A model generated the notes under the pieces. It searched no databases and was not told the DNA's origin. It was given only the letters and a program-made list of their open reading frames with translations. From the IMG/VR virus record IMGVR_UViG_3300031643_000106, positions 1 to 64,000 of that record: a stretch of DNA of 64,000 nt, one strand, 5' to 3'. Below, one piece after another: positions 15,968-57,078 of the stretch. This DNA is from a virus. A program made the translations under genes and the position numbers. Positions within the stretch are counted from its first letter, which is position 1, and each line of letters begins with the position of its first letter.

Positions 15968-15979
15968 CAGGAGGCATAA

Positions 15980-17236: not shown

Positions 17237-17292
17237 TGGATGAAAGAATTCTAAATATAGGCGGTTGGATGCACGAAAAAGAACTTGCATAG

Positions 17293-17823: not shown

Positions 17824-17840
17824 TTATTTGAGGAAATATA

Positions 17841-18665: not shown

Positions 18666-18683
18666 TGATATGGAAAAAAAGAA

Positions 18684-20560: not shown

Positions 20561-20561
20561 C

Positions 20562-21440: not shown

Positions 21441-21464
21441 AAAATACGAAGGTGGGGTATATCA

Positions 21465-22238: not shown

Positions 22239-23532
22239 ACCATATATCATTGACCCGCTAGGAATCGCCTACCTTAGCAGTTACTTGAAGGCGGCTGGAC
22301 ACTCAGTAGGTATCTATTCTCCGGGCAAACCTACTGATGGCCTAGCCGCCGACATGCTGTGCTATTCCATAACTACTGGCAAACATATAAAGTATATGGA
22401 AATCAACAAGCGCATGAAAAAAATCTTTCCAGACGCTATATCGGTATTTGGTGGATCGCATGTCACATTCTTTCCTGAGTTTGCTAATGCGGATGGTGTA
22501 GATGTAGCAGTAGCAGGCGAAGGCTTTGATGCTATTGTAGATGTTGCCAATGCCGTAGAGCGCGGTGACGGATTTTCGCACATTGATAATGTCGTACATG
22601 ACGGCAAATTTACGTTGCGCCCGATGCGAGATAAGGCGACGTTGCTGCATCCAGACAGGGAGTTAATATATTCCAATCCACGGAATTATAATAATCCAAT
22701 AAAGAATGTGATGTGTAGCTGGCTATGCGTCTTCAACTGCCCATACTGCTACAACGGTCAGTATAAGAAATTGTATAATATTCGTCGTGCAGTTATCCGC
22801 CCAGTTGCAGACATCATGGAAGAAATCGTAGAGCTACAAAGATACCCCCTGCAACTCCTGTTCTTCCAAGATGACATCTTTCCGCTATATGACCATAGGT
22901 GGTTGGATAGATTCTGCGAGGAATATGCAAGCCTTCATATTCCATTTCATATACAGACGCGTGTAGAGTATATAAACGAAAGTGTGATTAAGCAACTAAA
23001 GGAAGTCGGCTTACATGGAGTAACCTTTGCCATAGAGTCCGGTAACACTACCTTACGCAATGAAGTCTTACGTCGCAGGATGAGTGATGCTACTATCATT
23101 GCCAGTGCTGATATACTGCATAAGCATGGAATAAACCTACGCACTGAAAATATGATAGGCATACCACATGAGACGCCCAAGACAGCGATGCAGACATTGA
23201 AGTTGAATGTTGCCTGTAAGCCTACTATTGCATGGGCATCTGTGTTCCAGCCATATCCCGGAACAGACTTGGGCGATATGTGTCTGGAAGAAGGATTATT
23301 TGATGGAGATATTGACTCATTCAGCGAGTCATTCTTCGAGACATACCGCCTTAAAGTCAAGCATGGGAAATATTATGTTAGGCTTCAACATCTGTTCTCT
23401 CTTGCTGCTAGTTCTCGTTTAGTAAGATTCCTTTTGCCCATTTTACTAAAGTTATCTTTGACAAAACTATATAAAATCGTTTATAATAGAACTAAGAAAA
23501 GGTTATATGGACGTTTATACAAAGTTGGGTGA
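22216..23532 (+). CDS. B12-binding-type radical SAM enzyme, 438 aa
   Basis: Residues 1-130 form a cobalamin-binding-like Rossmann domain (LGIAYLSSYLKAAGHSVGIY, FGGSHVTFFPE, VAGEG). CVFNCPYC (C-x3-C-x2-C) near 171-178 binds the cluster, and GVTFAIESGNTTLRNEVLRR fits the radical SAM core. Such enzymes often methylate unreactive carbons or rearrange ring structures. The last 60 residues are hydrophobic and basic and may bind membrane. ATG follows GGGAGGATTG. It closes the sugar island. Confidence 0.8.
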   Translation: MKALFVVEPYIIDPLGIAYLSSYLKAAGHSVGIYSPGKPTDGLAADMLCYSITTGKHIKYMEINKRMKKIFPDAISVFGGSHVTFFPEFANADGVDVAVAGEGFDAIVDVANAVERGDGFSHIDNVVHDGKFTLRPMRDKATLLHPDRELIYSNPRNYNNPIKNVMCSWLCVFNCPYCYNGQYKKLYNIRRAVIRPVADIMEEIVELQRYPLQLLFFQDDIFPLYDHRWLDRFCEEYASLHIPFHIQTRVEYINESVIKQLKEVGLHGVTFAIESGNTTLRNEVLRRRMSDATIIASADILHKHGINLRTENMIGIPHETPKTAMQTLKLNVACKPTIAWASVFQPYPGTDLGDMCLEEGLFDGDIDSFSESFFETYRLKVKHGKYYVRLQHLFSLAASSRLVRFLLPILLKLSLTKLYKIVYNRTKKRLYGRLYKVG

Positions 23533-38827: not shown

Positions 38828-39190
38828 ATGAAATATGCTGGATGTATTATATTGCTATTGATAATAGCAGGATGTTCTGGTAGCGAGAAAGCTACCATTG
38901 TAGAAGATAAGGCATTAACCGTCTTTAGCGATGGTGAAGAGTATCCAAGTGTAGCTTCAGGAAACTACTTTGCCACTAATAACAGTGGCTTAACAACCAT
39001 CAAAGATTTTACAGATGGGTATGATAAAAAGATTATCACCATTATCTTTCGTGATGATAATACTATAGTGGAAAGCAATGACAGCATAGTATTGATGGGC
39101 GAATTGTCATTTGCTACTATAAAAGGCGATGCATTAACATTAGTTAAGTATGATGATACGTGGGAAGAAGTCAATAGACTTTTGAAATGA
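38828..39190 (+). CDS. Predicted lipoprotein with the appendage-repeat domain, 120 aa
   Basis: MKYAGCIILLLIIAGCSG is a type II signal peptide: basic start, hydrophobic core and lipobox IAGC with the lipidated Cys at 16. The mature part (VFSDGEEYPSVASGNYF, TTIKDF, KKIITIIFRDD, LVKYDDTWEEV) aligns in pattern with the triplicated domain of the preceding protein. A phage lipoprotein of this kind could block superinfection by occupying the receptor. Inference; it could also be a surface anchor working with the DGR target. Confidence 0.65.
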   Translation: MKYAGCIILLLIIAGCSGSEKATIVEDKALTVFSDGEEYPSVASGNYFATNNSGLTTIKDFTDGYDKKIITIIFRDDNTIVESNDSIVLMGELSFATIKGDALTLVKYDDTWEEVNRLLK

Positions 39191-39198
39191 GGTATATA

Positions 39199-42100
39199 AT
39201 GAAAACGAAGAAGCTAATTACAGTATTATTACTTGTGCTGATTACCAGCATGGCTTATGGAGCATCTTTGCGCCCTGCTTACTTTGGCGATGGAGTAAAC
39301 AAAGGTGCTGCCGGGCATGATGTTCGAGCATACGGGGCTACTGGCGATGGCGTAACTGATGACGCCGCAGCTATACAGGCGGCAGCCGATGCGGTAGCCG
39401 TAGTCGGGGGAGTGGTATTCTTGCCACCTGCGACCTATGCTATAGAATCTGGTATCACTATAGCCGCTGGCGTTCATGTTGAAATGGTTGGAGCCACCCT
39501 GCTATATACCGGCACTGCGGAAGAAACAGCATTAACGATTGGCGAACCCGGAGTCAATAATCGGCACGTATCCCTAATGGGGTTAAGTGTAGAAAGAGAC
39601 ACCTATAGTGACTGGTCTAATAATGCCAATATCGGTATCAGTATAATCAACGCTGTGGGTTGCGATATAAACATTGCCTTAGCGGCCGGGTTTACTATTG
39701 GCGTTAAATGCCTCGGACATGGGAAGGGCTGGGTTCATAACAATACACAGCTTGGGCGGATATTATATAATAAATATGGCCTTATGCTTTCCAATGATAC
39801 TTATGCTGGTGCCTATGGCTGGTGTAATGATAACCGGTTCTATGGTGGGCATTTTTCCACCTATTCAGGACAGTCTACTACAATAGACTGTCATGCTGTC
39901 TGGATAACAAGTGATGATGGTGGGTATACCGCCAATAACTCCAACGCCTTTTTTGGGATGGGGATAGAATTATCCGCCAGAACAGGAGGTGCTTATAGCT
40001 ATGGGGTATTATTAACACATGGAAATAGTAATGACTTTCATTCGTTACGGATAGAGGGCGTGGATTATATCTACAAATCCGAAAACGATTCTGCAAGAAA
40101 CGTTTTTTGGTTAATTCGTGATATTGATGATGATTTTGTTGAAGATGGTGACAAGCACTCTAATATTATTTTTCATCGAGATAAAGTAGAAGAGCGGCCA
40201 CCACGAGCGATTTTCTTATCAGGGCCTTTGTATAAGAAGGCTGCCTATTATGATGGCGATACAAACGTTAATGTGCCAAATGTGTTTCTTGCCAAGAATG
40301 ATGCTGTAACATATTCTAATATGGATAATATAGATATTACAGATGAATATTTACAGTTTACCACCCGTGGTGTTGGAATTTTCGTCAATACAGAAAATGC
40401 CAAAAAGTTTCTGGTAACCAGAGATGCCGTTGCGGGCAACGGTGGAAGATTATATGTCCGTTGCTATGACAGCGATGGCGCACTCCTTGATGGCTCCGGG
40501 GTCACCACGTATTTATATAGCAGGCGAGCTAGTACCGCTATGTCGTGGAGTGTAAACTACGGCGGTGCATATATATCTGGTGTAGACAGCGACGTGGCCG
40601 TTAGGTTCGAGGTAACCAGCGATGTTAAGACGATTGGTATTATATGCACATCTGGCACAAACCCACTCAAGATTCGCAGCTTCGCTATATATGAACTTGA
40701 TGCAGCACGTTCTTATGCTGCTGCTTGCTTTACAGGCTACGAGGAAATAGTACCCGGTGTCAACATTGGAACCACGTCGCCTACTGCTGGCAAGTACGAG
40801 GTTGGCCGACTTGTATATAACGCTACCCCAAGCGAATGGGCTGTAATTGGGTGGCAGTGCGTCAGCCGTGTTGATAGCCAGATGCGTGTCGGTGCAGTAG
40901 CTACCGATACGACTATGGAGATAGACGCCACTGCTGGTATGACTGCCGGGGATATTGTAGGTGTCGTGCAGGACGATGGCACTACTCACTGGACGACAGT
41001 AGCTTCCATTACAGACGGAGATACTCTGGAACTCACTGTTGGGCTGACGGACGACGCGGCAATAGATAACGATGTTTACACCTATCGCTTTGTCGCCTTT
41101 GGGTCAGTTGGCACGCCGTCTGCTACGCAAGTAATAGACGCAGTTGGCGATGCTATTCTGGCCAATGCCACGACTATCGTTCTCAATCCTGACGCCGACT
41201 ATGTTCTGACGAGTACACCGACTATCGCAGACGGCACGACAGGGCAGGTGCTTTATATCACCTGTGCGAATAACGAAGCGCATACCGTAACCATTCAGGA
41301 TCAGGATACATTAGCCAGTTCTCATTTGCAACTTTTGGCATCGACTCAGGTAGTTACGGGGAAGAAGGTTCTTCTCTTACAATTCGATGGCACTGACTGG
41401 GTGCAGTTGACGGGGCTGACGGACGCTGATTATGGCGACGTGACGATTTCGGGTGGCGTATGGTCGGTGGAAGATGATAGCCATTCTCATACAGGAGCAA
41501 CCTTGTCAGGAATAGATATATCGGCAGATACGAATCTGGCCGCCGGTTCTGGCATTACATTAACAGGTGATACACTGAGCACCAATATCCCCGGTGGATA
41601 TTATAGGGAATATGACGATAAATGGCAATATAAAGGCGTAGGTGCGGCGGCTGATAGGTATACATTACAGAGCCCAGCAGGATTATTGCTAGATATAGAC
41701 GGTACGATGTATCGGATAGTCGCACAGACGGATTATGTTCTGTCTGCGGCTGCGACTTGGGATACTCAAGTAGGAACAGATTACACGGTAGCCGCAAACA
41801 GGGCTGGTGTTGACTTTTATATTTATGCTATCCAACCGGCATCGGGAACTGTGCCACTTATTGAGGTAAGTGACAATAGTAGTGCCCCGGATGGCTATAC
41901 TACCGCAAATTCCCGCAAGGTCGGCGGCTTCCATTGTCTTTGTGTTGCCGTTGGCACTATTGGCGGCCATCCACTTACAGATTTTGTTGCAGGCGATATA
42001 CTTCCTGACAGCGTATGGGATTATGACCATCGCCCTATGGCATCGCCGGAGGGTATGGTATATTCTGAAGCGGCAAATATCTGGGTAGATATATATCTCG

Positions 42101-42747
42101 CTTCAGGCACAGGTGCGACAACTGCATCTGTTTATGGTGCTACAATTACCGATACGCGGAACTGGATGGACTTCACGGACGACGGTGCTGCCGTGAAGAA
42201 GCGGCTGCTCTGGGATGGCGAATTTCAGAAAATCGCTGCTGGTAGCAACGAAGAAACGAATATTGCTGGCGGTGCTGACCCTGGTACAACCGGGGGACAT
42301 AGTGACACCGTAGGCAGGCGGATGATTTCCAACATCGGAGTTGAGGACGGTTGCGGGGTTATGCGGCAATGGCTACAAGACCAGAGCTATCGCTACGATG
42401 CTGGTAACCATACTCATTCTGTAACTGTCACGTACAAGGCCAGCGCAACCGGTTCGCCTGTCTACAAAGACCAGGCTGAGACGAATTTTAATGGTGTAAC
42501 TGGCTCAGGAGCGGATGAAACAGTTAATACTTCAAGCGTTGACCCCGATCCTGCTTGGGCGCATCAAAACCTCGCTGGCGCTAAGGGTAGTCTTTACAGG
42601 CAGGGCACATACGGGGATGTGAAGCTGCGGGCGGGTGCGGATTGGAATGACGGGACGGATTCCGGGTCTCGGGCTCGGTATGCGGATGGCTACCGTTGGT
42701 CTGCGAATGCGGCTATCGGTGGCCGCTTCGCTTCGGAGCCGCGATAA
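39199..42747 (+). CDS. DGR target: secreted or tail-spike protein with variable C-type-lectin end, 1182 aa
   Basis: ATG 39199 has GAGG upstream and starts a clear Sec signal peptide (MKTKKLITVLLLVLITSMA, cut after AYGA). Residues about 38-95 are pectate-lyase-like (DVRAYGATGDGVTDDAAAIQ, GGVVFLPPATY), a beta-helix start common in phage tail spikes. A middle domain near 640-740 resembles the appendage repeat. The C-terminus has ISNIGVEDGCGVMRQWLQD and AGADWNDGTDSGSRARY, like the Mtd-type lectin domain of DGR targets. The last ~37 codons before the stop are the variable repeat. Confidence 0.85.
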   Translation: MKTKKLITVLLLVLITSMAYGASLRPAYFGDGVNKGAAGHDVRAYGATGDGVTDDAAAIQAAADAVAVVGGVVFLPPATYAIESGITIAAGVHVEMVGATLLYTGTAEETALTIGEPGVNNRHVSLMGLSVERDTYSDWSNNANIGISIINAVGCDINIALAAGFTIGVKCLGHGKGWVHNNTQLGRILYNKYGLMLSNDTYAGAYGWCNDNRFYGGHFSTYSGQSTTIDCHAVWITSDDGGYTANNSNAFFGMGIELSARTGGAYSYGVLLTHGNSNDFHSLRIEGVDYIYKSENDSARNVFWLIRDIDDDFVEDGDKHSNIIFHRDKVEERPPRAIFLSGPLYKKAAYYDGDTNVNVPNVFLAKNDAVTYSNMDNIDITDEYLQFTTRGVGIFVNTENAKKFLVTRDAVAGNGGRLYVRCYDSDGALLDGSGVTTYLYSRRASTAMSWSVNYGGAYISGVDSDVAVRFEVTSDVKTIGIICTSGTNPLKIRSFAIYELDAARSYAAACFTGYEEIVPGVNIGTTSPTAGKYEVGRLVYNATPSEWAVIGWQCVSRVDSQMRVGAVATDTTMEIDATAGMTAGDIVGVVQDDGTTHWTTVASITDGDTLELTVGLTDDAAIDNDVYTYRFVAFGSVGTPSATQVIDAVGDAILANATTIVLNPDADYVLTSTPTIADGTTGQVLYITCANNEAHTVTIQDQDTLASSHLQLLASTQVVTGKKVLLLQFDGTDWVQLTGLTDADYGDVTISGGVWSVEDDSHSHTGATLSGIDISADTNLAAGSGITLTGDTLSTNIPGGYYREYDDKWQYKGVGAAADRYTLQSPAGLLLDIDGTMYRIVAQTDYVLSAAATWDTQVGTDYTVAANRAGVDFYIYAIQPASGTVPLIEVSDNSSAPDGYTTANSRKVGGFHCLCVAVGTIGGHPLTDFVAGDILPDSVWDYDHRPMASPEGMVYSEAANIWVDIYLASGTGATTASVYGATITDTRNWMDFTDDGAAVKKRLLWDGEFQKIAAGSNEETNIAGGADPGTTGGHSDTVGRRMISNIGVEDGCGVMRQWLQDQSYRYDAGNHTHSVTVTYKASATGSPVYKDQAETNFNGVTGSGADETVNTSSVDPDPAWAHQNLAGAKGSLYRQGTYGDVKLRAGADWNDGTDSGSRARYADGYRWSANAAIGGRFASEPR
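42630..42737 (+). repeat. DGR variable repeat (VR)
   Basis: The 108 bp match the template repeat at 42821-42928 except at 17 positions; at each the template has A (13 A to G, 2 A to T, 2 A to C). None of the 78 non-A template positions differ. It encodes residues about 1144-1180 of the target and ends 10 bp before its stop. Confidence 0.95.
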
Positions 42748-42820
42748 GTAATGAGAAAAAGATAAAACGAAGAACGCGAAACGCGCGATTTATTTTTGGG
42801 CTGATAGGTCTGTGGCTGCT

Positions 42821-42928
42821 GGCAGGTGCGAATTGGAATAACGGGACGAATTCCGGGTCTCAGGCTCGGAATGCGAATAACTACCGTTGGAATACGAATA
42901 CGAATATCGGTAGCCGCTTCACTTCGGA
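42821..42928 (+). repeat. DGR template repeat (TR)
   Basis: This is the donor copy for the VR, 191 bp downstream. It contains 30 adenines, many in AAT/AAC codons in the target's frame, so mutagenesis replaces Asn codons most often. Homology extends weakly leftward to 42815 with one non-A mismatch. The TR would be transcribed, reverse transcribed with errors at A and written into the VR. A CGCG-AAA-CGCG hairpin lies at 42775-42785. Confidence 0.93.
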
Positions 42929-43043
42929 TACAGGACTGTGAGCTAACTCCTGGCTGGACTTATTGGCCTTGTCGAAAGGCAAAATACAAAACGGAGGGGC
43001 TGGAGGGCTAGTAGCGATTGCGAAAGTCATCCAGCCTATTATC

Positions 43044-44054
43044 ATGAAGCGTCATGGAAATTTATACGCCAAAATAGCGAATATTGATAATATTCGTATA
43101 GCATATTTGAAGGCTAGAAAAGGTAAGGGCTGGCAGCGCACTATAAAGCGGTTCGATGTCAACCTAAATGCGAATCTTGAGGCAATATATAGAATGCTTG
43201 CAGACAGAAAATTCAATACATCGCCATATAAAACAAAAATAATAAATGAGCCGAAACGGCGCGAGATATTTATTCTACCATTCGCTCCTGACAGGATTGT
43301 GCAGCACGCATTGATGAACGTCGTTGAGCCGATATGGGAAGGCCTATTTATCCACGATTCTTATGCCTGTAGAGTTGGCAAAGGCATACATGCAGGAAGC
43401 AGGCGCACGATGGAGTTCGTGAGGAGAAACAGATATTGCCTGCAATGCGATGTATCAAAATTCTACCCGTCAATAGACCACGATACCCTATTTTCCATAA
43501 TTCAGAACAAGATAAAGTGTAGCGACACGCTGGCGATGATAAAAAATATTGTTTACAGCACTGAAGGGCCGAGAAATGTTCCCATAGGAAATTATACCAG
43601 CCAGTGGTTTGGCAACCTGTATTTGAACGAGCTTGATAGTTTTGTCAAGCAGAAATGCCAAATCAAGGATTACATTCGATATTGTGATGATTTTCTCCTG
43701 TTCCATGACGATAAGCGGCATTTGCATGAAATTAAAGATGAACTGAAGGCCTTCGTGGATGCAAGGCTCAGTCTGAGGCTAAGGAAAGATAGTATATTCC
43801 CTGTAAGCCAGGGGGTGGACTTTCTTGGATACCGGCATTTTAGAGGATATATCTTGCTGAGGAAAAGCACCGCTAAGCGCGTGATAAAGCGGCTGAGGAA
43901 AATGCCGGAAATGCTTGCATCCGGTAGGCTTTCTAAGGATAGGGCCAGGGCGTCACTTGCATCGACTAGGGGCTGGCTAAGATGGGCAAATGCGCACAAT
44001 CTGTCATTGAGCCTGGAGATGGATAAATTGATGGAGCTGTGCGATGCAGCCTAA
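43044..44054 (+). CDS. DGR reverse transcriptase, 336 aa
   Basis: I chose ATG 43044 because MKRHGNLYAKI is the usual DGR-RT N-terminus, although no ribosome site precedes it; a TTG at 42963 would add 27 residues. Motifs are DVSKFYPSID (D136), IGNYTSQWFGNLYL with the DGR-type SQ at about 186-187 instead of SP, and YCDD at about 213-216, then the thumb with GVDFLGYRHF. It copies the TR RNA with misincorporation at adenines. The end overlaps the next gene. Confidence 0.92.
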   Translation: MKRHGNLYAKIANIDNIRIAYLKARKGKGWQRTIKRFDVNLNANLEAIYRMLADRKFNTSPYKTKIINEPKRREIFILPFAPDRIVQHALMNVVEPIWEGLFIHDSYACRVGKGIHAGSRRTMEFVRRNRYCLQCDVSKFYPSIDHDTLFSIIQNKIKCSDTLAMIKNIVYSTEGPRNVPIGNYTSQWFGNLYLNELDSFVKQKCQIKDYIRYCDDFLLFHDDKRHLHEIKDELKAFVDARLSLRLRKDSIFPVSQGVDFLGYRHFRGYILLRKSTAKRVIKRLRKMPEMLASGRLSKDRARASLASTRGWLRWANAHNLSLSLEMDKLMELCDAA

Positions 44055-45267: not shown

Positions 45268-46098
45268 ATGGGCGAAATCGTTGACAGGAAAAATATATTG
45301 ACTATATCAAAGGCATACAAGGAGACAGGACATCGCTTTGTCACTACCTGCGGGTGCTTTGATATACTACACATAGGCCACAAGAGATTTCTTGAGGCGT
45401 GTGCAGCACAAGGCGATGTGTTGGTTGTATTAGTCAACAGCGATAGGTCAGTCCGTGCGCTGAAGGGCGCAGGTAGACCGTGTGTGCCGGAAGAAGAACG
45501 TGCGGAGATTCTATCCGCCTTTAGTTGTGTTGACTATGTATGTATATATGATGAAGATACGCCTGATGAAATATTAAAGATTATAGACCCCGACGTGCAT
45601 TGCAAAGGCAATGAATACAAGTTGGAGGACGTTGGTGAACGCCATGTAGTTCGTCATGTAGAACTTATCCCCATTGACAAACTTAATTCTACCACAAAGA
45701 TTATCAATCAAATTCTTGTGAACAACGGCACTATTGATGTCGAACAGCTACGCAATTCCCCAGACGTAGTAGTTGACGACAACCACGATTGGGGATTTGA
45801 ACTCCGCCTTATTAACAACGATTTATACACCGGCAAGTTTTTGGTCTACACTAATAACACCCATGCAGGTAGCTGTCATTACCACGCAAAAAAGACAGAG
45901 ACATTCAAGATTATTTCTGGTGAAGTTCTAGTATATAAAGAACCTAATGTTCAGCGAATATTCAAGCACGGAGAGGAAATCTTAATACCGCGTGAGTACC
46001 GCCACCAGATGCGCGCCGTTACTCCCCGCGCTGTCATCATGGAAGTTAGCACCCACCACGACGATAGCGACACCTACAGAGTTGAGTCTATTCTATAG
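45268..46098 (+). CDS. RfaE/HldE-type nucleotidyltransferase fused to a cupin domain, 276 aa
   Basis: I chose ATG 45268 after TAGGAGGATAC; longer versions run into the previous gene. GCFDILHIGH at 29-38 is the HxGH nucleotide-binding motif and LNSTTKIINQI matches the second motif of the ADP-heptose synthase nucleotidyltransferase half. Residues about 180-276 form a cupin (CHYHAKKTETFKIISGEVLV, HQMRAVTP). Cupins of this kind are found in sugar isomerases and epimerases. The separate kinase half is at 50620. This combination is unusual. Confidence 0.8.
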   Translation: MGEIVDRKNILTISKAYKETGHRFVTTCGCFDILHIGHKRFLEACAAQGDVLVVLVNSDRSVRALKGAGRPCVPEEERAEILSAFSCVDYVCIYDEDTPDEILKIIDPDVHCKGNEYKLEDVGERHVVRHVELIPIDKLNSTTKIINQILVNNGTIDVEQLRNSPDVVVDDNHDWGFELRLINNDLYTGKFLVYTNNTHAGSCHYHAKKTETFKIISGEVLVYKEPNVQRIFKHGEEILIPREYRHQMRAVTPRAVIMEVSTHHDDSDTYRVESIL

Positions 46099-46292
46099 CA
46101 CCATCGTCGTAGTTAGGTGGTAAATCGTGCCGTGTTCTTTACCGTCAGTTCTCAGATTGGACATGAGAACTACTCCATAAGCAACAATCCTTCCGTATTT
46201 GACCTGTAAGGCGTTTTCTTTGCACAAAAAACTAAATGCCGAATAAAGTGGCGCAAAAGTTATTTGTTCTTGACCTTGCCCATGTCTCGCCC
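46099..46292. other. Convergent intergenic region
   Basis: Rightward late genes meet leftward genes here. AGTTCTCA (46147-46154) pairs with TGAGAACT (46164-46171) around a 9-nt loop; no T tract is present on either side, so termination may be weak or factor-dependent. No coding frame is supported. Confidence 0.5.
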
Positions 46293-46913
46293 CTACGATT
46301 TTACGCCAGCCCTACCTTCTGCATCGTGTTTGAGAATTATATCCGCCGCAGTAGACAGGTTAGCCGAAATAATCAGCGGTTTGCCAGTGTAATCATGTAT
46401 AGGTCTATCGCCTACATAGATTAAATTGGTGATGTCTGTGCGTTCTCCCGCTTGAATGTCAGTCAACGAGTCTCCTATCATCCAGCACAAACTACGATCT
46501 AGCTGATAACCCATGATTTTTTTCCATAGCATACCGGGCGCAGGCTTGCGACATCCACAATTTATGTCAGGATGATGTGGACAGAACTGATAGTCCTGTA
46601 TCTTTATCTTCTGTTGCTCCAACAGATATACCATAAAACCAAAGGTCACTTCCATCTCGGTCAACGTACAGAATCCACGCCCTATACACGATTGGTTGCT
46701 GACTATAATCAATTTGTAATCTGTTGACTGTAGTTTGTATAACCCCTCGATAGCCTCTGGCAAAAGCACCACGTCTTTAGGGTGCATGGTATATGCTTCT
46801 GGCACATCAGCCTCCAGTGCTACACTACCATCCTTAATAGCTGGAGGCAGGTCTAAAATTACGCCGTTCATATCCAGAAAAATAGCTTTACCTAACTCAA
46901 ACTTTAGTTTCAT
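46293..46913 (-). CDS. GmhB-like HAD phosphatase with altered active site, 206 aa
   Basis: ATG 46913 follows GGAGGTGACGT. SNQSCIGRG (72-80), CPHHPDINCGCRKPAPGM with the zinc ligands C111, H113, C119 and C121, and MIGDSLTDIQAG match D,D-heptose 1,7-bisphosphate phosphatase. The catalytic DxD is D14-M-N16: the second Asp, the usual acid/base, is Asn. It may be slow, altered in specificity, or a binding protein. It fits with the nucleotidyltransferase (45268) and kinase (50620). Confidence 0.75.
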   Translation of the reverse strand: MKLKFELGKAIFLDMNGVILDLPPAIKDGSVALEADVPEAYTMHPKDVVLLPEAIEGLYKLQSTDYKLIIVSNQSCIGRGFCTLTEMEVTFGFMVYLLEQQKIKIQDYQFCPHHPDINCGCRKPAPGMLWKKIMGYQLDRSLCWMIGDSLTDIQAGERTDITNLIYVGDRPIHDYTGKPLIISANLSTAADIILKHDAEGRAGVKS

Positions 46914-46916
46914 ACG

Positions 46917-47111
46917 TCACCTCCTATGTTTGTACTCTTGTATCAGATTGGCTATACTATACGGCATTGTGGGTTGCTCCTCTACATGCTGATTTGGCAA
47001 TGATTCTTTGTATCGCAGCCACCGTGCTACCATTTTAGTAGGATAGCTCATGTGTTTCATGCGGTGATTGTCTCGCCACCTTTGGATTAGCTTCAACCAC
47101 AATTTAGCCAT
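46917..47111 (-). CDS. Hypothetical basic protein, 64 aa
   Basis: ATG 47111 follows AGGAGGTGAC. The protein begins MAKLWLKLIQRWRDNHRM and is rich in Arg, Lys, Trp and His, probably helical. It overlaps the membrane protein gene upstream by 8 nt. No family is recognised. Confidence 0.6.
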   Translation of the reverse strand: MAKLWLKLIQRWRDNHRMKHMSYPTKMVARWLRYKESLPNQHVEEQPTMPYSIANLIQEYKHRR

Positions 47112-47481
47112 GCGTCACCTCCTGTGTTGCATATTTCTTTAGCCTTCGTGTTACAAAATAATTGGTGATTAGACCTCCTGCAAGAAACAAAATAGCAAGC
47201 ATTCCAAATACCCCAACAGATTTCATTTCGCCAATAAAATAACACACTATACTCCCGATCAAAAGTGGCAACCCTATCATGAATAAGACCATGCTTAAAT
47301 CAAGATCATTTTTGGCTAGTACCATTTTCCCTAACGGAACATGAAAAGTTCTGATACGCCACAGAGGGATACGGGATAAAATCCAACAAATAGACAGGTA
47401 TATCCCGCATATCACTAGGATACAGATAATGCCACCAATTACTTTTATTATAATCAACGCACCGCTCAATATATCATCCAT
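47104..47481 (-). CDS. Membrane protein with about four transmembrane helices, 125 aa
   Basis: Hydrophobic segments at about 8-35 (IIIKVIGGIICILVICGIYL), 63-80 (LFMIGLPLLIGSIVCYFIG) and 88-105 (GVFGMLAILFLAGGLITNYF), with a basic tail RRLKKYATQ. Likely in the inner membrane; function unknown. ATG follows GGAGG. Confidence 0.65.
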   Translation of the reverse strand: MDDILSGALIIIKVIGGIICILVICGIYLSICWILSRIPLWRIRTFHVPLGKMVLAKNDLDLSMVLFMIGLPLLIGSIVCYFIGEMKSVGVFGMLAILFLAGGLITNYFVTRRLKKYATQEVTHG

Positions 47482-47491
47482 CTTCCACCTC

Positions 47492-47692
47492 CTAAGTCCA
47501 CATAGTAACCTCGTATTGGTTAGATACGTCTTGTATTTTGCAGAGTCCTTTGTCGAATTCAGAGACGCCTTCCATTATCTGCCATATCGTGCCATCGTGC
47601 TTGACATATAAGTCAAGTATATCTGCCTCTTGCGGTGTCAAGTCACGTCGATACTTGTAGCTAAAGAACGAAGCATTCTTATATGGCTCCAT
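47492..47692 (-). CDS. Hypothetical protein, 66 aa
   Basis: ATG 47692 follows AGGAGGTTAAG. The protein begins MEPYKNASFFSYKYRRDL, contains LTPQEADILDLYVKHDG (helical) and ends in a strand. No family is recognised. Confidence 0.6.
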   Translation of the reverse strand: MEPYKNASFFSYKYRRDLTPQEADILDLYVKHDGTIWQIMEGVSEFDKGLCKIQDVSNQYEVTMWT

Positions 47693-47693
47693 C

Positions 47694-48026
47694 TTAACCT
47701 CCTATGTGTCCAAATGGGTGCGTACCGCCACCTATGTTCTCGAACAAATACAATATGCGCCCATCATTAAAGATAAGATTACAAATATATTCAAGGGAAT
47801 CATCCCCTTGTATGATTTCCCCCATTTGCGCCGTTATAAATTTCCGCATACCAGTGTGTTTATATGGCAAACTCTGATATACTACACCAGTTATGTAAAT
47901 ATCATCACCCGCAACTCTAGCAGAAGTTATCTCTACTCCGCCGCAAGGCATTTCCAACTCAAAGGCTTTTGCGAGTGGACAGCTAAATTCCTCAATGTGC
48001 CTACCTCGCTCTCCCCAAATTCTCAT
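47694..48026 (-). CDS. Hypothetical beta-rich protein, 110 aa
   Basis: ATG 48026 follows GGGGG within a repeated leader motif; upstream in-frame starts lie in the repeat. The protein begins MRIWGERGRHIEEFSCP. Many beta strands and a His-Gly end (GGGTHPFGHIGG) are seen. No family is recognised. Confidence 0.55.
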   Translation of the reverse strand: MRIWGERGRHIEEFSCPLAKAFELEMPCGGVEITSARVAGDDIYITGVVYQSLPYKHTGMRKFITAQMGEIIQGDDSLEYICNLIFNDGRILYLFENIGGGTHPFGHIGG

Positions 48027-48027
48027 C

Positions 48028-48264
48028 TTAACCCCCATTTCTACTGGTAAGCCCACCTAAATTTTCTTTTTTATTTTTTTCAGCTACCGTTTTTGTATCT
48101 CCACTATTATCATGGGTGGGTCTTTGAGTCGTCCAACAATACGTAATACCAAAATGCCAAAAGAAAACTCCGATAACGTGGGCATCTTTCCCGCTACCTA
48201 GATAGCCATAATTACGATATATCTTAAAATCCCTCATAAACACCGATGATATGCGATGACGCAT
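48028..48264 (-). CDS. Hypothetical basic protein, 78 aa
   Basis: ATG 48264 is preceded by GGGGGTGAT from the upstream repeat copy. The protein begins MRHRISSVFMRDFKIY with an aromatic middle (VFFWHFGITYCW) and ends LGGLTSRNGG encoded by the second repeat copy. The downstream repeat provides the ribosome site of the next gene. Confidence 0.5.
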   Translation of the reverse strand: MRHRISSVFMRDFKIYRNYGYLGSGKDAHVIGVFFWHFGITYCWTTQRPTHDNSGDTKTVAEKNKKENLGGLTSRNGG

Positions 48265-48304
48265 AAACAATATAATCACCCCCATTTCTACTGGTAAGCC
48301 CACC
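48032..48304 (-). repeat. Two 26-bp identical repeats carrying ribosome sites
   Basis: The same 26 bp occurs at 48032-48057 and 48279-48304, and a diverged third copy lies immediately beyond (about 48305-48325). In the leftward sense each ends with GGGGG used as Shine-Dalgarno for the genes starting at 48026 and 48264. This looks like a spreading translation-start module. Confidence 0.6.
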
Positions 48305-48346
48305 CTCATATCTACGGGTAAGGTTCGGTCATAGTGTCCAATATGG

Positions 48347-48913
48347 TCACGTACAATTATCATGCAAAAATGAATGACAACGCCCACATAATAATACAAC
48401 ATCACTAAATATATTCTCTTCCCCGTACCTGTCGTAGTGTACATGGTGCAATTCCAAACATTTGTCACATCCACATACATAGCATCTGGGATCATCGTCT
48501 AATAGCATGTGCTTTAATACCACTTGGTGTTTTCTTTCTTTATTGTTTAGCTTCCTTGCAGGTCTTGGGGCGGTGGGGATTAGCATTTTAATAAGCCTTA
48601 GTTGTCCATGTGTTAATGATCCTATCTTCGGACAACTTACATCAACGGCAAGCTTCATCATGGACTTATCACCGCTTGTGTTCCAAACAAAATCCGCACT
48701 ACGCAACTCTCGTATCGCACGAATCGTGCTAGAGTGTGGCAAACATGAGATTGATTCCATTTGGTCATGTGAAATAGTAAAGGTATCGTCATGGCTTGGG
48801 TTCTCCCGATGATATACCCATAGTGAAATCAACAGAACTTTTGCTATGTTGGTAAGTTTGTTATATTTATTTGAGTTAAGTATTTGACATGGGATACAAA
48901 TATTCTCTTCCAT
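48347..48913 (-). CDS. Winged-helix plus HNH endonuclease-like protein, 188 aa
   Basis: Residues 1-85 have a helix-turn-helix pattern (YNKLTNIAKVLLISLWVY, SSTIRAIRELRSADFVW). Residues about 143-186 are a zinc-bound HNH finger: CYVCGC, LELHHVHYDRYG, and CGRCHSFLHD. HNH proteins cut DNA and in phages are often homing enzymes or packaging partners. ATG follows GAGGTGAAG. It is preceded by a structured leader and a promoter at 49038-49067. Confidence 0.7.
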   Translation of the reverse strand: MEENICIPCQILNSNKYNKLTNIAKVLLISLWVYHRENPSHDDTFTISHDQMESISCLPHSSTIRAIRELRSADFVWNTSGDKSMMKLAVDVSCPKIGSLTHGQLRLIKMLIPTAPRPARKLNNKERKHQVVLKHMLLDDDPRCYVCGCDKCLELHHVHYDRYGEENIFSDVVLLCGRCHSFLHDNCT

Positions 48914-48936
48914 TTCTTCACCTCTGGTGTTGTAAG

Positions 48937-48989
48937 GTGGTGATGGTCGCGAACACCATGACTACGGGAATAGCCAACACGACCACCAC
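48937..48989 (-). promoter_or_regulatory. Leader RNA hairpin, copy B
   Basis: In the leftward RNA, GUG-GUGGUCG (48989-48980) pairs with CGACCAU (48949-48943) and CAC (48939-48937), leaving a 3-nt bulge. The same architecture with compensatory base changes is found at 61578-61635 (copy A); copy C is at 54751-54799. It sits between promoter and first gene. Confidence 0.6.
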
Positions 48990-49037
48990 AATAGTTTTAG
49001 TGATGCAGACAGGTCATGACTCCGTGTCTACACTACA

Positions 49038-49067
49038 ATTATACTACACTACCAGAGGTAAAGTAAA
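49038..49067 (-). promoter_or_regulatory. Leftward sigma70-type promoter
   Basis: TTTACT (49067-49062) and TATAAT (49043-49038) with 18 bp between; TG-like extended -10 bases are absent. It drives the HNH gene and the following leftward genes. Confidence 0.55.
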
Positions 49068-49070
49068 GCA

Positions 49071-49205
49071 TTATATCTTGCGTCCACGACCTGTCTTGCT
49101 GGTAGTCTTGCAACCACCACGTCCACGATTCAATCGCTTGCCTCCCCCTGAATCGTCGTGCTTGGGTACACCTTTCTTGGTTTTCTTAGTCTTTCTTCTG
49201 GTCAT
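49071..49205 (-). CDS. Tiny highly basic protein, 44 aa
   Basis: ATG 49205 follows GTAGGAGGGATAGC. The protein begins MTRRKTKKTKKGVPKH and ends TTSKTGRGRKI; over one third is Lys or Arg. It is likely disordered and nucleic-acid binding. It ends just before the promoter at 49067. Confidence 0.65.
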   Translation of the reverse strand: MTRRKTKKTKKGVPKHDDSGGGKRLNRGRGGCKTTSKTGRGRKI

Positions 49206-49253
49206 TGCTATCCCTCCTACGTTGGTTATGACGTACATCATTCGTGGGGTACG

Positions 49254-49466
49254 TTATCCATCCTCTCCTTTTAACTGAGCCAGAGCTTTGACTGAAAACT
49301 CCACCTCCGTAAACACCTTTATTCGCCAATCTCCATGCCGGATAGCTAATTCGCTTACTTGTTCCTCTATTTCTTTCTCAGACGAAGACTCCAGTTCGAG
49401 CCTCCACTCCTTTGCTCCGATACGGTCACCGACATTTCTCATCACGAAATACATTTTATAAGCCAT
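49254..49466 (-). CDS. Hypothetical protein, 70 aa
   Basis: ATG 49466 follows GAGGAGGGGCGGG. The protein begins MAYKMYFVMRNVGDRIG and has charged helix and strand segments. It overlaps the HAD gene upstream by 11 nt. No family is recognised. Confidence 0.6.
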   Translation of the reverse strand: MAYKMYFVMRNVGDRIGAKEWRLELESSSEKEIEEQVSELAIRHGDWRIKVFTEVEFSVKALAQLKGEDG

Positions 49467-50058
49467 CCCGCCCCTCCTCTCTCAGTATTATCTCCACTGC
49501 CTCAAGAAATCCAGACACTTCGTAATCTGCGCTCGTCTTTGGTCTGCGATCCCACGAATGTTTCTTAGCTATCTCAGGATCGCCATTCACCGCTATGTGA
49601 AACTCCGTCTCAGGATACCACAGGTGGATTGTCTTGCACCCCGTAGCTGCGCCTGCCTCGATGTCTGTCGGCAGATCGCCAATCATCCAGTATTCAACCT
49701 CGTCTACCGCCAGCATGTTCTGTATATTTTGTTGCCACTTAATCAACTCGGTCTTTCCAATTACGGCATCGCCAAAGACAACGCCAATATCTACCATGCT
49801 ACTGAGAGCGGCATCAACCCTGTATAGAATTGCGTCATGAATAGCAACAAGCTCCTCTTTGGTTATCACCCCCTTTGGTACACAGTTCTGCGTGGTTACA
49901 CAGAATACAGGAACAGCCGCATCTCTAAGCCGCTTCAATCCCTCAAGTACGCCGGTAAAAAACTGCACCTGATTTGGTGCAGTAATGTACCAATAGCCCT
50001 GATAACCAGTGCGTATCAAGGTGTCGTCTCTGTCTACGAATACAACCTTCTGCTTCAC
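49456..50058 (-). CDS. HAD-superfamily phosphatase, 200 aa
   Basis: GTG 50058 was chosen because AAAGGAGGTG lies 4-5 nt upstream. VVFVDRDDTLI gives an intact DxD (D9, D11), with TTQNC as motif II and YWMIGDLPTDIEAGAATG as motif IV. It resembles the GmhB/histidinol-phosphatase group but lacks the zinc loop. Unlike the protein at 46293, its catalytic aspartates are complete, so it may be the working phosphatase of the sugar pathway. Confidence 0.75.
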   Translation of the reverse strand: MKQKVVFVDRDDTLIRTGYQGYWYITAPNQVQFFTGVLEGLKRLRDAAVPVFCVTTQNCVPKGVITKEELVAIHDAILYRVDAALSSMVDIGVVFGDAVIGKTELIKWQQNIQNMLAVDEVEYWMIGDLPTDIEAGAATGCKTIHLWYPETEFHIAVNGDPEIAKKHSWDRRPKTSADYEVSGFLEAVEIILREEGRDGL

Positions 50059-50071
50059 GTCACACCTCCTT

Positions 50072-50251
50072 TCATGGCAACAAACACAATGCAATGTGGA
50101 CTTTCCCTACGCCGATATGTAATACAGCATAGTGGAGTCTTATCTCGAAGAAAGACTCTCCGTATCCTATCGCCATAGCCAATCTCCAAAAGATAACTTC
50201 CATTGCATTTGTGCCACGATAAGGCGCATATAATCGCCGTAGGCTAATCAT
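50072..50251 (-). CDS. Hypothetical small protein, 59 aa
   Basis: ATG 50251 follows GAGAGGAGGGATAAG, a strong ribosome site. The protein begins MISLRRLYAPYRGTNAM and is hydrophobic in the second half (YAVLHIGVGKVHIALCLLP). It may associate with membrane. No family is recognised. Confidence 0.55.
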   Translation of the reverse strand: MISLRRLYAPYRGTNAMEVIFWRLAMAIGYGESFFEIRLHYAVLHIGVGKVHIALCLLP

Positions 50252-50343
50252 CTTATCCCTCCTCTCATTCCTACATAGCGGTGCGGATTCTTATAATCCT
50301 TGCCACCGCTTTATTTTGAAAATCCCATCTCACACCTCCCTGC

Positions 50344-50619
50344 TTACCAGCTATTATAAAACCGAATTGTTTTGACATGCTTGGGTATTGCCTTTACATC
50401 TATTTCATACCCCTCGGATTCAATACCTCCCCATTCTCGGCAATGTTCCTCTAAGTCAATAACCACACCAGAGGCATCCGGCTCTTCACCATCGAAGAAC
50501 GCGTCTACCTCGTCTGGTATTTCTAGGTTTGCCGCTACACAAGTATCGTATACCGCCTTCATCTTTTTCCATTCTTCATCTGGCGGCACTATCCCTCTTA
50601 CAAATGTTGACATTGACAT
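50344..50619 (-). CDS. Hypothetical protein, 91 aa
   Basis: ATG 50619 uses a GGAGGTGAT site located in the last codons of the sugar kinase gene, so it is coupled to it. The protein begins MSMSTFVRGIVPPDEEW and is acidic and soluble (DEVDAFFDGEEPDASG). It resembles small phage-encoded acidic proteins of unknown role. Confidence 0.6.
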   Translation of the reverse strand: MSMSTFVRGIVPPDEEWKKMKAVYDTCVAANLEIPDEVDAFFDGEEPDASGVVIDLEEHCREWGGIESEGYEIDVKAIPKHVKTIRFYNSW

Positions 50620-51537
50620 CTACATCACCTCCCCGCACAGTTCGTCCACCGTGCAATGCGCTATGCCTTCCTTCTGCACTACTATTGCGCCTGCTTTGTT
50701 CGCTAGTTCTGCTGCTGACCGCACATCTTCGGTACGCAAATATTCCATTGTGAAAACGGATAATACCGTATCTCCTGCGCCAGGCGTTTCCACAGCTTTT
50801 ACATTGTGTCCATCTAAGGAATAGACCTGCCCTGCTGAATAAACATCAAGCCCGGATGAACCATGAGTTATTATTCTAGCCTTGCTTGAACGTAGAACAT
50901 CTTTTAGCACCCCACCCCTAGAGTTAAATTCTTCCCCATTACATTGAAAGACCGTACAGCCAAAGAAATGACTGACATCCTTCGCTTTGGAATTGACAAA
51001 CGTAGGCACATCAAACTCATTGCACACCTTTATTATCGCTTCCGCCTGATGTGGCTGTAATACGCCCTTGTTGTAGTCAGACAGGACAACAGCGTCATAT
51101 TTGCGAACATCATCCATAAAACAACCAAGCAGTTCTTCGTCCGCTGACTGAGATGTTGACGTGCTTTCGCAATCTACCCTTACAATGTGACACCCATTCC
51201 CAATTATTCTTAATTTGTGTGGTGTATTGTACCTCCCGTCTTGGTGATAATGGCCGACTATGCCTTTGTTATGACATTCTACCATTATATCTTTTGCGGC
51301 TTTGTCATATCCGCCTACGGTATGAAACCACACATGCGCCCCAAGTCTGCGTAACTGCACAGCAACATTCCCTGCGCCACCAAGATTGATAACCTTCTCA
51401 GGATTCTCTACCACTGGAACAGGTGCTTCGGGGTTAATCCGTGTCACGCTACCACGCCACCACTCGTCTTGTATGAAGTCACCAACAACAGCTATCTTCA
51501 GCTTGCTATACGCCTCCCGTAGTACATCAGCTTTCAT
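50620..51537 (-). CDS. HldE/RfaE-type PfkB sugar kinase, 305 aa
   Basis: ATG 51537 follows AGGAGGATAAT. TRINPEAPVPVVE (32-44) and NLGGAGNVAVQLRRLG (51-66) are signatures of the heptose 7-phosphate kinase half of HldE. The catalytic GAGDT lies at about 253-257. In bacteria HldE joins kinase and nucleotidyltransferase; here the nucleotidyltransferase is a separate gene (45268). It would phosphorylate a heptose 7-phosphate at C1; the isomerase GmhA is not seen and could come from the host. Confidence 0.88.
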   Translation of the reverse strand: MKADVLREAYSKLKIAVVGDFIQDEWWRGSVTRINPEAPVPVVENPEKVINLGGAGNVAVQLRRLGAHVWFHTVGGYDKAAKDIMVECHNKGIVGHYHQDGRYNTPHKLRIIGNGCHIVRVDCESTSTSQSADEELLGCFMDDVRKYDAVVLSDYNKGVLQPHQAEAIIKVCNEFDVPTFVNSKAKDVSHFFGCTVFQCNGEEFNSRGGVLKDVLRSSKARIITHGSSGLDVYSAGQVYSLDGHNVKAVETPGAGDTVLSVFTMEYLRTEDVRSAAELANKAGAIVVQKEGIAHCTVDELCGEVM

Positions 51538-53570: not shown

Positions 53571-53941
53571 TTATTAATATTATTACCATAGGGGTGTCCT
53601 TCGCCAGTTAGCCATTCAAGGTTAGGTTTATATTTAGAAGGTATATGCTTGCCCCCTTTATCAATAATTATAAACCCTGCGTTATCTAGTTGCTTGAGGC
53701 AAGCACTGATTCGCCTGTTATCATACCCCGTTATCTCTTTAATCTCTTCGTATGTAAACGGATAGTAGTCCTTTATTTTTCCGTTCATGCGCGTAAACTT
53801 GGTTAGCAAAACAACATACAACCATCTAGCATGTGTTGATAATTTGTTTAGCTCTGGAGATTGCGTAGTATAGTGCGGAATTGCAGTAAACGGGGCTTGT
53901 AGCTTCTCATAGTAATCGACCCTGCTTTTCCTCTTAGCCAT
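53534..53941 (-). CDS. Winged-helix replication-initiator-like protein, 135 aa
   Basis: ATG 53941 lies in the end of the methyltransferase gene with GGTGG upstream. LSTHARWLYVVLLTKFTR, FTYEEIKEITGYDNRRISAC and LKQLDNAGFIIIDKGGKH make a clear winged helix, as in RepA/replisome organiser N-domains. It lies directly beside the iteron-like array, whose last copies overlap its 3' end. It probably binds those repeats. Confidence 0.7.
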   Translation of the reverse strand: MAKRKSRVDYYEKLQAPFTAIPHYTTQSPELNKLSTHARWLYVVLLTKFTRMNGKIKDYYPFTYEEIKEITGYDNRRISACLKQLDNAGFIIIDKGGKHIPSKYKPNLEWLTGEGHPYGNNINKSSKSVTKESNN

Positions 53942-54731
53942 GACTACCACCGCCTAACGGTAGCTCTGGCTGTGTTAGCTCAATCTTGATACGCTCTTTC
54001 GATATGTCGCAATATTCCTCTGATATATCTATCCCTATATACCGGCGACCTGTTTTGATACTGGCAACAGGCGTTGTTCCACTACCAACGAATGGGTCTA
54101 ATACAATCTCGTCTGGGTATGAATATAATTTTATTATTCGCGCCGGAATTTGGATTGGGAAAGGGGCAACATGCCCAATAGCAGATGCCTTTTCAGGTGC
54201 TATAGACCATACGCTGTTTCGCCATGATTTGAACTCAAATGGTGTCAAGTAATATCCGCTGCGCTTCTCTCTTTTACCGTATTTTCTTAATACAATAATA
54301 TACTCATGTTGATCAGCCAGTGCGGGATCAGATGGGTTACAATAACTGCCCCATGCCGTGCCAATCTGCCCGTAGCCTTTATGCCAGATTATTTCCCCAA
54401 GCGGTTCGCATTTCCCAACAGACCATTCATATATTTTAGCTACATTTGTTAGGTACGGTCGACGTTTTGTGTTTGCCATATTAATTATTAGCTTACACCC
54501 GGGCTTGAGGATTCTTAATGCCTCATTCCACACTTGCCATAGATATTCATGGGCTTTATGGAAATTCTGTGGATGCCAGAGTTCCTCCCAAAACCTAATT
54601 ACACCGGGATAAGGTGGACTTGTAACAACCAAATCCACAGACTCATCTGGCATTTGCGGCATAACCTCAAGGTTATCACCACATATAATTTTATTCTCAA
54701 AATCTTCTGGAAATTTTAGGTCGGTATTCAT
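53934..54731 (-). CDS. DNA methyltransferase, TSPPY type, 265 aa
   Basis: ATG 54731 follows GGAGGTTATT. TSPPY (37-41) is catalytic motif IV and DPFVGSGTT near 216-224 is SAM motif I; the order IV before I indicates the beta class (N4-cytosine or N6-adenine). The TSPPY form favours N4-cytosine. No restriction enzyme is nearby, so it likely protects phage DNA or regulates it. First gene after its own promoter and structured leader. Confidence 0.85.
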   Translation of the reverse strand: MNTDLKFPEDFENKIICGDNLEVMPQMPDESVDLVVTSPPYPGVIRFWEELWHPQNFHKAHEYLWQVWNEALRILKPGCKLIINMANTKRRPYLTNVAKIYEWSVGKCEPLGEIIWHKGYGQIGTAWGSYCNPSDPALADQHEYIIVLRKYGKREKRSGYYLTPFEFKSWRNSVWSIAPEKASAIGHVAPFPIQIPARIIKLYSYPDEIVLDPFVGSGTTPVASIKTGRRYIGIDISEEYCDISKERIKIELTQPELPLGGGSHG

Positions 54732-55464: not shown

Positions 55465-55572
55465 TCAACGCCTCCTTTCTTTGTGCTTGTCTTTCTCATA
55501 CGATAGCCATATACTACCAAGAGAGAAGCACATAATAAACAATACGAATATGGTAGCCGCAACTGTTTTCAT
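55465..55572 (-). CDS. Small membrane peptide, 35 aa
   Basis: ATG 55572 overlaps the protease stop, with GGAGGAATA upstream. MKTVAATIFVLFIMCFSLGS is a single hydrophobic helix, with a basic tail KDKHKERRR. It forms a run of three membrane proteins after the protease gene. Confidence 0.5.
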   Translation of the reverse strand: MKTVAATIFVLFIMCFSLGSIWLSYEKDKHKERRR

Positions 55573-56642
55573 TATTCCTCCTTGTCGCTGAGTTCTTTGG
55601 CTATGATAATCAGTTCGGTGGTGATAGACTCCGTAGCTCTGGACAGTACCATGATGCGCCTGATAATCTCCGCATAGGTAGCCTTATGCCCTATTGCCTC
55701 CAGCATTAAGCCAACATCAGGGAAGCCATAGCCTGTCTCTAGCGTCTTCACACCTGCGTTGCTACCGTATGTCTTTAGTAGGTTGAAGAATCCGTTCTGC
55801 CCTACGCCTTTATTAGCACTACGCACCAACGCCGCTACGCCTGCCATGTTAGCACATGCCTGACTCGTACCCTCTGCTACGGTAAACCTGTGGCGCATCC
55901 AGAAGGTAACTGGCTGTGCGCTACCCGGTGCAACGGCGGTTATGTTTTCTCCGTAGTCAGACATGCCCCACCGTGCGCCAGTAGGGTTAGTACCACCTAT
56001 TGCCAGTGCGCCACTGGATTCCGCAGGGTACATCATTGACGCCTTGCCACGATTGCCTGATGCCGCCAGTACAATACAGCCCTTGCTGATGGCGTATGCT
56101 ATAGCGTCCACTACGGCTGTTGACTGGTATGAATAGCCAACACAGATAGTTATAACATCAGCCTTCATGTCAGCGGCACGTTCTATGCCGTCTGCTAATC
56201 TCGATGCAGGGCAATTACCGTATCTATCTATGACAACAATAGGCATTAACATAGCATCAGGAGCAACGCCTACCATGCCAAAGCCGTCGCACTCAGCAGC
56301 TATCGTGCCTGCTAAGTATGTTCCATGCCTGTATTTATCACGCGTAATGGCGTTGTTATCTACGAAATTCCAGCCCGGCACAATCTTTGGGTGCTGACCT
56401 GACGTTATATCACGCGTCACTACGTCATACAAGCGGTCGTTGTAGGCATCGCTGTTGGCACTGGACAATGGAACATTGCCAGACCAGCCTAAATCTTTAT
56501 GAGAGCCGTCAACCCCACTATCTACTACAGCCACGACCACGCCTGCGCCCGTGGAATAACGCCAAGCGGCAGGTACGTTTAACAACTTTAGATTCCAACA
56601 TGAACCGAACATCTCATCCGTAATCTTCGCCGCATCAGCCAT
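55572..56642 (-). CDS. Subtilisin-like (S8) serine protease, 356 aa
   Basis: ATG 56642 follows GGGAGGATGATA. The complete triad is present: VVAVVDSGVDG (D41), RHGTYLAG (H106) and EGTSQACANMAG (S260), with oxyanion Asn in AASGNRG (N197). There is no signal peptide or propeptide, so it acts in the cytoplasm. Phages seldom carry S8 proteases in early operons; it could cut host proteins, a defence protein or a virion precursor. Confidence 0.88.
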   Translation of the reverse strand: MADAAKITDEMFGSCWNLKLLNVPAAWRYSTGAGVVVAVVDSGVDGSHKDLGWSGNVPLSSANSDAYNDRLYDVVTRDITSGQHPKIVPGWNFVDNNAITRDKYRHGTYLAGTIAAECDGFGMVGVAPDAMLMPIVVIDRYGNCPASRLADGIERAADMKADVITICVGYSYQSTAVVDAIAYAISKGCIVLAASGNRGKASMMYPAESSGALAIGGTNPTGARWGMSDYGENITAVAPGSAQPVTFWMRHRFTVAEGTSQACANMAGVAALVRSANKGVGQNGFFNLLKTYGSNAGVKTLETGYGFPDVGLMLEAIGHKATYAEIIRRIMVLSRATESITTELIIIAKELSDKEE

Positions 56643-57078
56643 TATCATCCTCCCTCTTGGCGTCTTGCGCCTTGATTATATCATCCAACTCTTGCCGTGT
56701 CTTAAAGATACCCTCCTTTGCAAGTTCAACGAGTGGTTTAACCATCCGCCTAGCGTCCAGGTATGCAGTTGCCATGCCGTGATAATATCTTTCCTTCCTC
56801 GACCCTGCTACAACCATGTCTTCCATTCGACCGTGGCTGTAGTCAATTTCGTCACTAAGCCTCGTCATGATATTCTTGACTAGCAAGGATATATCTTTCT
56901 TCACGACTACATCTTTCTCACACGCTGCACATGAGGTTAGAAATAGTCCCTCGCGTCCCAACTTGTCCTTAGTAGCCAGTGATAAGCGTATAAATGCCGC
57001 ACTGTCTACTTCAAGTTCCACGACATATTTCCCTTCATCCTCTTGAAAACTTATCTTAAACCACTGGTCATCAGCCAT
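56635..57078 (-). CDS. Hypothetical protein, 147 aa
   Basis: ATG 57078 is within the end of the upstream gene. The protein begins MADDQWFKISFQEDEGKY, with CAAC and a helical C-terminus. Its last ~22 residues (GIFKTRQELDDIIKAQDAK) match the end of the neighbouring excisionase-like protein (GIFKCRQNLADEIKIQDEK), suggesting a shared interaction tail. Confidence 0.6.
   Translation of the reverse strand: MADDQWFKISFQEDEGKYVVELEVDSAAFIRLSLATKDKLGREGLFLTSCAACEKDVVVKKDISLLVKNIMTRLSDEIDYSHGRMEDMVVAGSRKERYYHGMATAYLDARRMVKPLVELAKEGIFKTRQELDDIIKAQDAKREDDNG

Follow-up and report, generated by a model that had tools for sequence, protein, structure and literature searches.

The window analysed here, which covers bases 1–64,000 of a 69,867-bp IMG/VR record, codes for several predicted enzymes of nucleotide-heptose synthesis, and raises the question of which enzyme would isomerise sedoheptulose 7-phosphate at the start of the pathway. 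To our knowledge, GmhA is the only sedoheptulose-7-phosphate isomerase known. No SIS_2 or gmhA match was found in the whole record by searches that detected the positive controls, so the preliminary description was right to report GmhA missing.

Predicted heptose enzymes encoded in the window

Judging from a TerL-like ORF at 5170, a portal (7427), an SU10-type adaptor (23688), and a tail protein (ORF 39187–42747), the source of the window is a tailed phage; the TerL-like ORF and a capsid-like ORF at 10416 are putative assignments read from ORFs. The heptose genes are scattered, do not form an operon, and sit across a strand switch near 44–48 kb, where the sign of the GC skew flips. An HNH-type ORF (48347) lies among them. 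A megablast search of the 20 kb around these genes against phages gave no match, and no relatives of the kinase, the nucleotidyltransferase, the capsid-like ORF, or TerL were recovered in single-protein scans of viral contigs.

The product of 50620–51537 (minus strand) is a predicted heptose-7-phosphate kinase of the HldE domain I (PfkB) type. TIGR02198 was its best family by far (E 2e-68), although the score of 230.8 bits is under the 345-bit equivalog cut-off, and its best solved relative in the PDB was HldA (4e84, E 1.8e-28). Both characteristic motifs, RINPEAPVPV (R-I-x-P-E-A-P-V-P type) and GAGD, are intact. The nucleotidyltransferase is encoded on the opposite strand by the first part of the 45268–46098 (+) ORF (45268–45747, residues 1–160). 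It is of the HldC/RfaE domain II type: TIGR02199 was the best family at 146.9 bits, yet under the cut-off of 181.5, the best solved relative (5x9q, 4e-21) is from the same family, and the HxGH motif is intact (GCFDILHIGH). Thus, the HldE-type kinase and the RfaE-type nucleotidyltransferase of the preliminary description are both borne out. The E-values of the heptose gene matches rule out chance.

Two HAD proteins had also been described as GmhB-like phosphatases. Both follow the GmhB/HisB branch, which upholds the family assignment, but each departs from the GmhB pattern at one site. The first, encoded at 46293–46913 (minus strand), scored 109 bits with NF006506, had 4pnh as its best PDB match, and retains the zinc loop CxH...CxC as CPHH...CGCRKP. 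At motif I, however, it has DMNG in place of DxDG, with the second aspartate lost, and is the sole aligned GmhB-like row with asparagine at this position. It is probably an impaired phosphatase. The second, a HAD-IIIA protein encoded at 49456–50094 (minus strand), is a weaker match (TIGR01662, 49.3 bits, cut-off 44.6); it has the motif I DxD (DRDD) and lacks the zinc loop, and is a candidate heptose bisphosphate phosphatase.

The proposal that an SDR protein encoded at 20562 plays the part of HldD did not hold. Its TIGR02197 score was 23.5 bits, over model positions 1–31 only, against a cut-off of 274.6, and its best NCBIfam model is dTDP-glucose dehydratase. No HldD was recognised in the record. 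Compared with the bacterial ADP-heptose pathway (GmhA, HldE or HldA plus HldC, GmhB, and HldD), the phage shares the families of the kinase, the adenylyltransferase, and the GmhB-like phosphatase, but differs in having no GmhA, no HldD, one HAD protein with DxN, and a nucleotidyltransferase fused to a cupin.

A cupin with the residues of sugar isomerases

The cupin, overlooked in the preliminary description, makes up approximately residues 161–276 of the nucleotidyltransferase protein (45748–46098, plus strand) and matches PHROG 7851 at 5e-19. It scored 19.6 bits with PF07385 (D-lyxose isomerase), just below the gathering cut-off of 20.8, and showed a weak profile similarity to TIGR01479 (type II phosphomannose isomerase/GDP-mannose pyrophosphorylase). 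AF2 modelling of the cupin domain on 92 sequences gave a pLDDT of 94.9, while the full two-domain protein modelled without an alignment gave an unusable pLDDT of 33. Because cupins fold alike and the Z-scores of the fold search tie, the fold does not separate cupin functions and says little on the function of this one.

The residues are more telling. Aligned to D-lyxose isomerase 2y0o, the cupin profile scored 29.1 bits, the highest for any single stretch in the five alignments listed, and seven sugar and metal contacts of D-lyxose isomerase (aligned positions K56, H69, H71, K80, E82, H137, and E150) fall on positions that are invariant in 92/92 aligned cupins; in the window protein these are K190, H204, H206, K209, E211, H246, and E259. 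In the Thermofilum enzyme, the contacts with mannose and fructose are made by K62, H75, H77, K86, E88, H143, E156, and D163 (PMC8378251). Comparison of the sequences suggests that the two numberings differ by a constant six; for D163, the last of these contacts, the cupin profile offers no exact equivalent. D-lyxose isomerases (2y0o, 7nzo) and cupin phosphomannose isomerases (7zvy), which are ketol isomerases of manno-configured sugars, have the same metal and sugar-contact residues as the phage cupin. The phage cupins are shorter, at about 115 amino acids against 171–178 residues in the target chains, and are 23–24% identical to lyxose isomerases. The name “Cysteine dioxygenase”, which the cupin carries in PHROG and RefSeq, was set aside, as residues and context fit a sugar isomerase better.

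The interconversions of mannose 6-phosphate with fructose 6-phosphate and of heptose 7-phosphate with sedoheptulose 7-phosphate involve the same C1–C2 change in manno-configured sugars. In GDP-mannose synthesis, a single polypeptide, type II phosphomannose isomerase/GDP-mannose pyrophosphorylase, carries out both the first step and the last. Proteins of this kind (AlgA/ManC type), like the window protein, have an N-terminal nucleotidyltransferase and a C-terminal cupin, and the phage fusion may be a parallel case. The nucleotidyltransferases themselves differ: that of AlgA/ManC is of the GDP-mannose family, while that of the window protein is of the HldC (HxGH) family, with heptoses as the expected substrates.

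Cupin and GmhA in viral and bacterial cassettes

It is common, not exceptional, for a phage to carry heptose genes, and such genes have already been reported: they are described in SynMITS9220M01 (PMC7378029), rfaE in pelagimyophages (PMC7029224), and viral rfaE/hldE in deep water (PMC10653327). We found heptose kinases of the HldE type on more than 500 IMG/VR contigs. The company that these genes keep was surveyed in three IMG/VR scans, keyed on the kinase, the cupin, or GmhA, and scored with profiles built in this analysis; the thresholds were our own, and related loci are not independent. Hypergeometric values calculated for the lack of co-occurrence disregard this kinship and were given no weight. 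Among 80 viral loci drawn by the kinase, 61 had the cupin, 4 had GmhA, and none had both. Among 80 loci drawn by the cupin, 51 had the kinase, and GmhA was found in 0/51; conversely, the cupin was found in none of the 33 kinase-bearing loci drawn by GmhA. At one viral locus (L307), cupin and GmhA are ca. 5 kb apart. Another viral contig (L193) carries two kinase/nucleotidyltransferase/cupin sets within 6 kb, and cupin–nucleotidyltransferase fusions occur in both domain orders.

A tree of dereplicated kinases (69 cupin-type and 19 GmhA-type) required at least four changes between the cupin and GmhA labels. The window kinase clusters with the cupin type; its branch is long, and the SH-aLRT value of 84 was not starred. 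In 24 of the 69 dereplicated cupin loci, the kinase, phosphatase, nucleotidyltransferase, and HldD, which make up all other steps, are found alongside the cupin within 6 kb. In four cupin loci HddA replaces the PfkB kinase (three with HddC, two of these also with a HAD protein), and by gene content these are loci of the GDP-heptose route. The isomerase step is common to the ADP- and GDP-heptose routes. No heptose kinase was recognised near the cupin in 25 of the 80 cupin-drawn loci, so the cupin has, or had, other uses, unless these cassettes are cut or too divergent.

Most phage records with relatives of both the kinase and the nucleotidyltransferase are cyanophages, whose heptose cassettes are annotated as such. 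In P-SSM2, S-SSM7, S-CAM3, and P-TIM68 the nucleotidyltransferase, the kinase, a small HAD protein, the same cupin, and an HldD homologue are encoded close together. These cassettes share with the window phage the nucleotidyltransferase, kinase, cupin, and HAD phosphatase, and the lack of a SIS-type GmhA; they differ from it in that the cupin and nucleotidyltransferase are separate genes, the small HAD is EcbF-like, and an HldD homologue is present. Of five complete genomes of cassette-bearing cyanophages that were searched, four had no SIS domain at any position. The cyanophage gene annotated or grouped as “phosphoheptose isomerase” (L010:6719–7063, P-SSM2 YP_214542.1; also in L004, L008, and L003) had no SIS match. 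Its product starts with a HAD motif and resembles EcbF/BcbF-type capsule phosphatases, the best model, with scores below the cut-off.

The genome of SynMITS9220M01 contains two clusters that each include a kinase gene, and between them they encode both the cupin and a SIS protein that weakly resembles GmhA. Two further proteins of this phage are of note. QJT70198.1 (L359:259–1416), annotated as “phosphatase”, combines a domain resembling sugar nucleotidyltransferases with an RpiB/LacA-type sugar-phosphate isomerase, and is another nucleotidyltransferase–isomerase fusion. The hypothetical protein QJT70212.1 (L361:2770–3522) joins a HAD-like N-terminal part (DLDGT) to an HldC/glycerol-3-phosphate cytidylyltransferase-like domain.

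In bacteria the cupin is rare. None of 80 bacterial kinase loci had it within about 6 kb. It was found in 11/398 genomes of a phylum sampled around one genome, G001 (at 1e-14), in 0/385 genomes of the class of G001 (at 1e-20), and in 1/395 genomes of the phylum of a second, G002 (at 1e-18). The bacterial cases inspected were in other contexts or belonged to another subfamily, with Q-x-H replacing H-x-H, and gmhA is also present in two bacteria that encode relatives of the cupin. Four bacterial loci (L348–L351) encode NeuB-like synthases of 528–538 amino acids that end in a cupin of this type (YC-K, HxHxxKxE, EVST).

Proposed pathway and alternative explanations

The explanation that we tentatively prefer, while holding it somewhat short of an even chance, is that this phage has a module for nucleotide-heptose synthesis, of a kind often found in aquatic phages, with a metal-dependent cupin in place of GmhA. 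The cupin half of the fusion protein would convert host sedoheptulose 7-phosphate to D-glycero-D-manno-heptose 7-phosphate, a substrate that we infer from genomic context and conserved residues. The PfkB kinase, whose family is clear, would then produce the 1,7-bisphosphate. The 7-phosphate would be removed by the 49456 HAD protein, perhaps together with the 46293 protein; this is the weakest of the enzyme assignments. Since no HldD was recognised, the donor would stay in the D,D form or be epimerised by the host. The preliminary description spoke of nearly a whole route, which is apt if the cupin counts as the isomerase; as written, it contained no isomerase and the wrong HldD. We extend the same proposal, with similar reserve, to the whole aquatic-phage cupin family, which may be a metal-dependent phosphoheptose isomerase, non-homologous to GmhA, that serves ADP- and GDP-heptose cassettes alike. 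It would make the phage pathway self-sufficient, and in the window phage the first and last enzymes would be a single protein.

The strongest alternative, credible though in our estimate doubtful, is that ADP-heptose is made with host GmhA performing the first step, leaving the cupin a role further along the route; it might, for instance, epimerise or otherwise modify the nucleotide-heptose or its product. Supply of GmhA by the host, as first suggested for this locus, is possible, if no longer the most economical reading, and agrees with the lack of GmhA in the record. In viral loci, HldD is found together with the cupin but not together with GmhA, and the cupin could therefore serve a later step. 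Moreover, the SynMITS9220M01 cupin is accompanied by HddA, an HddC-like enzyme, a dehydratase resembling GMD, and a reductase resembling RmlD. In Campylobacter, such a set works with an RmlC-type cupin epimerase. RmlC-type epimerases are metal-free, whereas in the phage cupin the metal site is intact and the D-lyxose isomerase contacts are kept. In addition, it is present here without HldD and is almost never found beside GmhA.

We consider it unlikely that the product of the module is a different activated sugar or polyol, its heptose names being inherited from distant homologues. All of the proteins do score below equivalog cut-offs, and the phage kinase is only about 30–35% identical to bacterial kinases. 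However, when profiles of heptose enzymes were compared with those of glycerol and other sugar enzymes, both the kinase and the nucleotidyltransferase were closest to the heptose enzymes, by wide margins (230.8 bits versus 56.8 for ribokinase, and 146.9 versus 29.7 for glycerol-3-phosphate cytidylyltransferase), and in related cassettes the same genes lie beside HldD homologues (TIGR02197, 210–243 bits). A decaying pathway that makes nothing would agree with the DxN motif of the 46293 protein, the lack of HldD, and the scattering of the genes around an HNH-type ORF, but is very improbable given the intact motifs of the kinase, nucleotidyltransferase, and cupin and the second HAD protein with DxD.

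In the literature searched, which covered few subscription papers, we found no description of a cupin as a GmhA replacement or of a nucleotidyltransferase–cupin fusion, and none linking a cupin to sedoheptulose-7-phosphate isomerisation. If the cupin is indeed the isomerase, the heptose-nucleotide route may be encoded in full, with no need to lean on the host, on hundreds of phage contigs, and the family would clearly illustrate how an enzyme can be replaced by a non-homologous one within mobile cassettes. In that case the name “phosphoheptose isomerase” would have been given to the wrong cassette gene in cyanophages, leaving a set of phage annotations to correct.

A plausible user of ADP-heptose as donor is the tandem GT9 protein (heptosyltransferase family) encoded at 12354–14144 (plus strand). 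The preliminary description of this protein is supported by two GT9-like halves, although only the N-terminal half (PF01075, 39.5 bits) is above the cut-off of 22, the C-terminal half, at 19.4 bits, being just below it. The GT9 gene opens an 11-kb glycan island (12354–23532) that lies between the head genes and the SU10-type adaptor. The remainder of the island (14113–23532, plus strand) codes for GT1 and GT2 glycosyltransferases, a GT2-deacetylase, methyltransferases, SPASM and B12 radical SAM proteins, and an SDR. Through GT9 and the island, the heptose could be used to decorate the host envelope or the virion, and remodelling of LPS or of the virion, proposed at the outset, is plausible.

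Several other features of the window were observed. A tRNA-Ile(AAT) gene is located at 687–763, and genes for an L,D-transpeptidase (YkuD), a DNA methyltransferase, and an S8 subtilase-like protease are located at 2353–2961, 53934–54731, and 55572–56648, respectively. A diversity-generating retroelement occupies positions 42624–44054. Its variable repeat (VR, 42624–42737) is at the 3' end of the tail-protein ORF, and is 84% identical to the template repeat (TR, 42815–42928), with many of the differences at TR adenines; the reverse transcriptase, with an IGxxxSQ motif, is encoded at 42963–44054.
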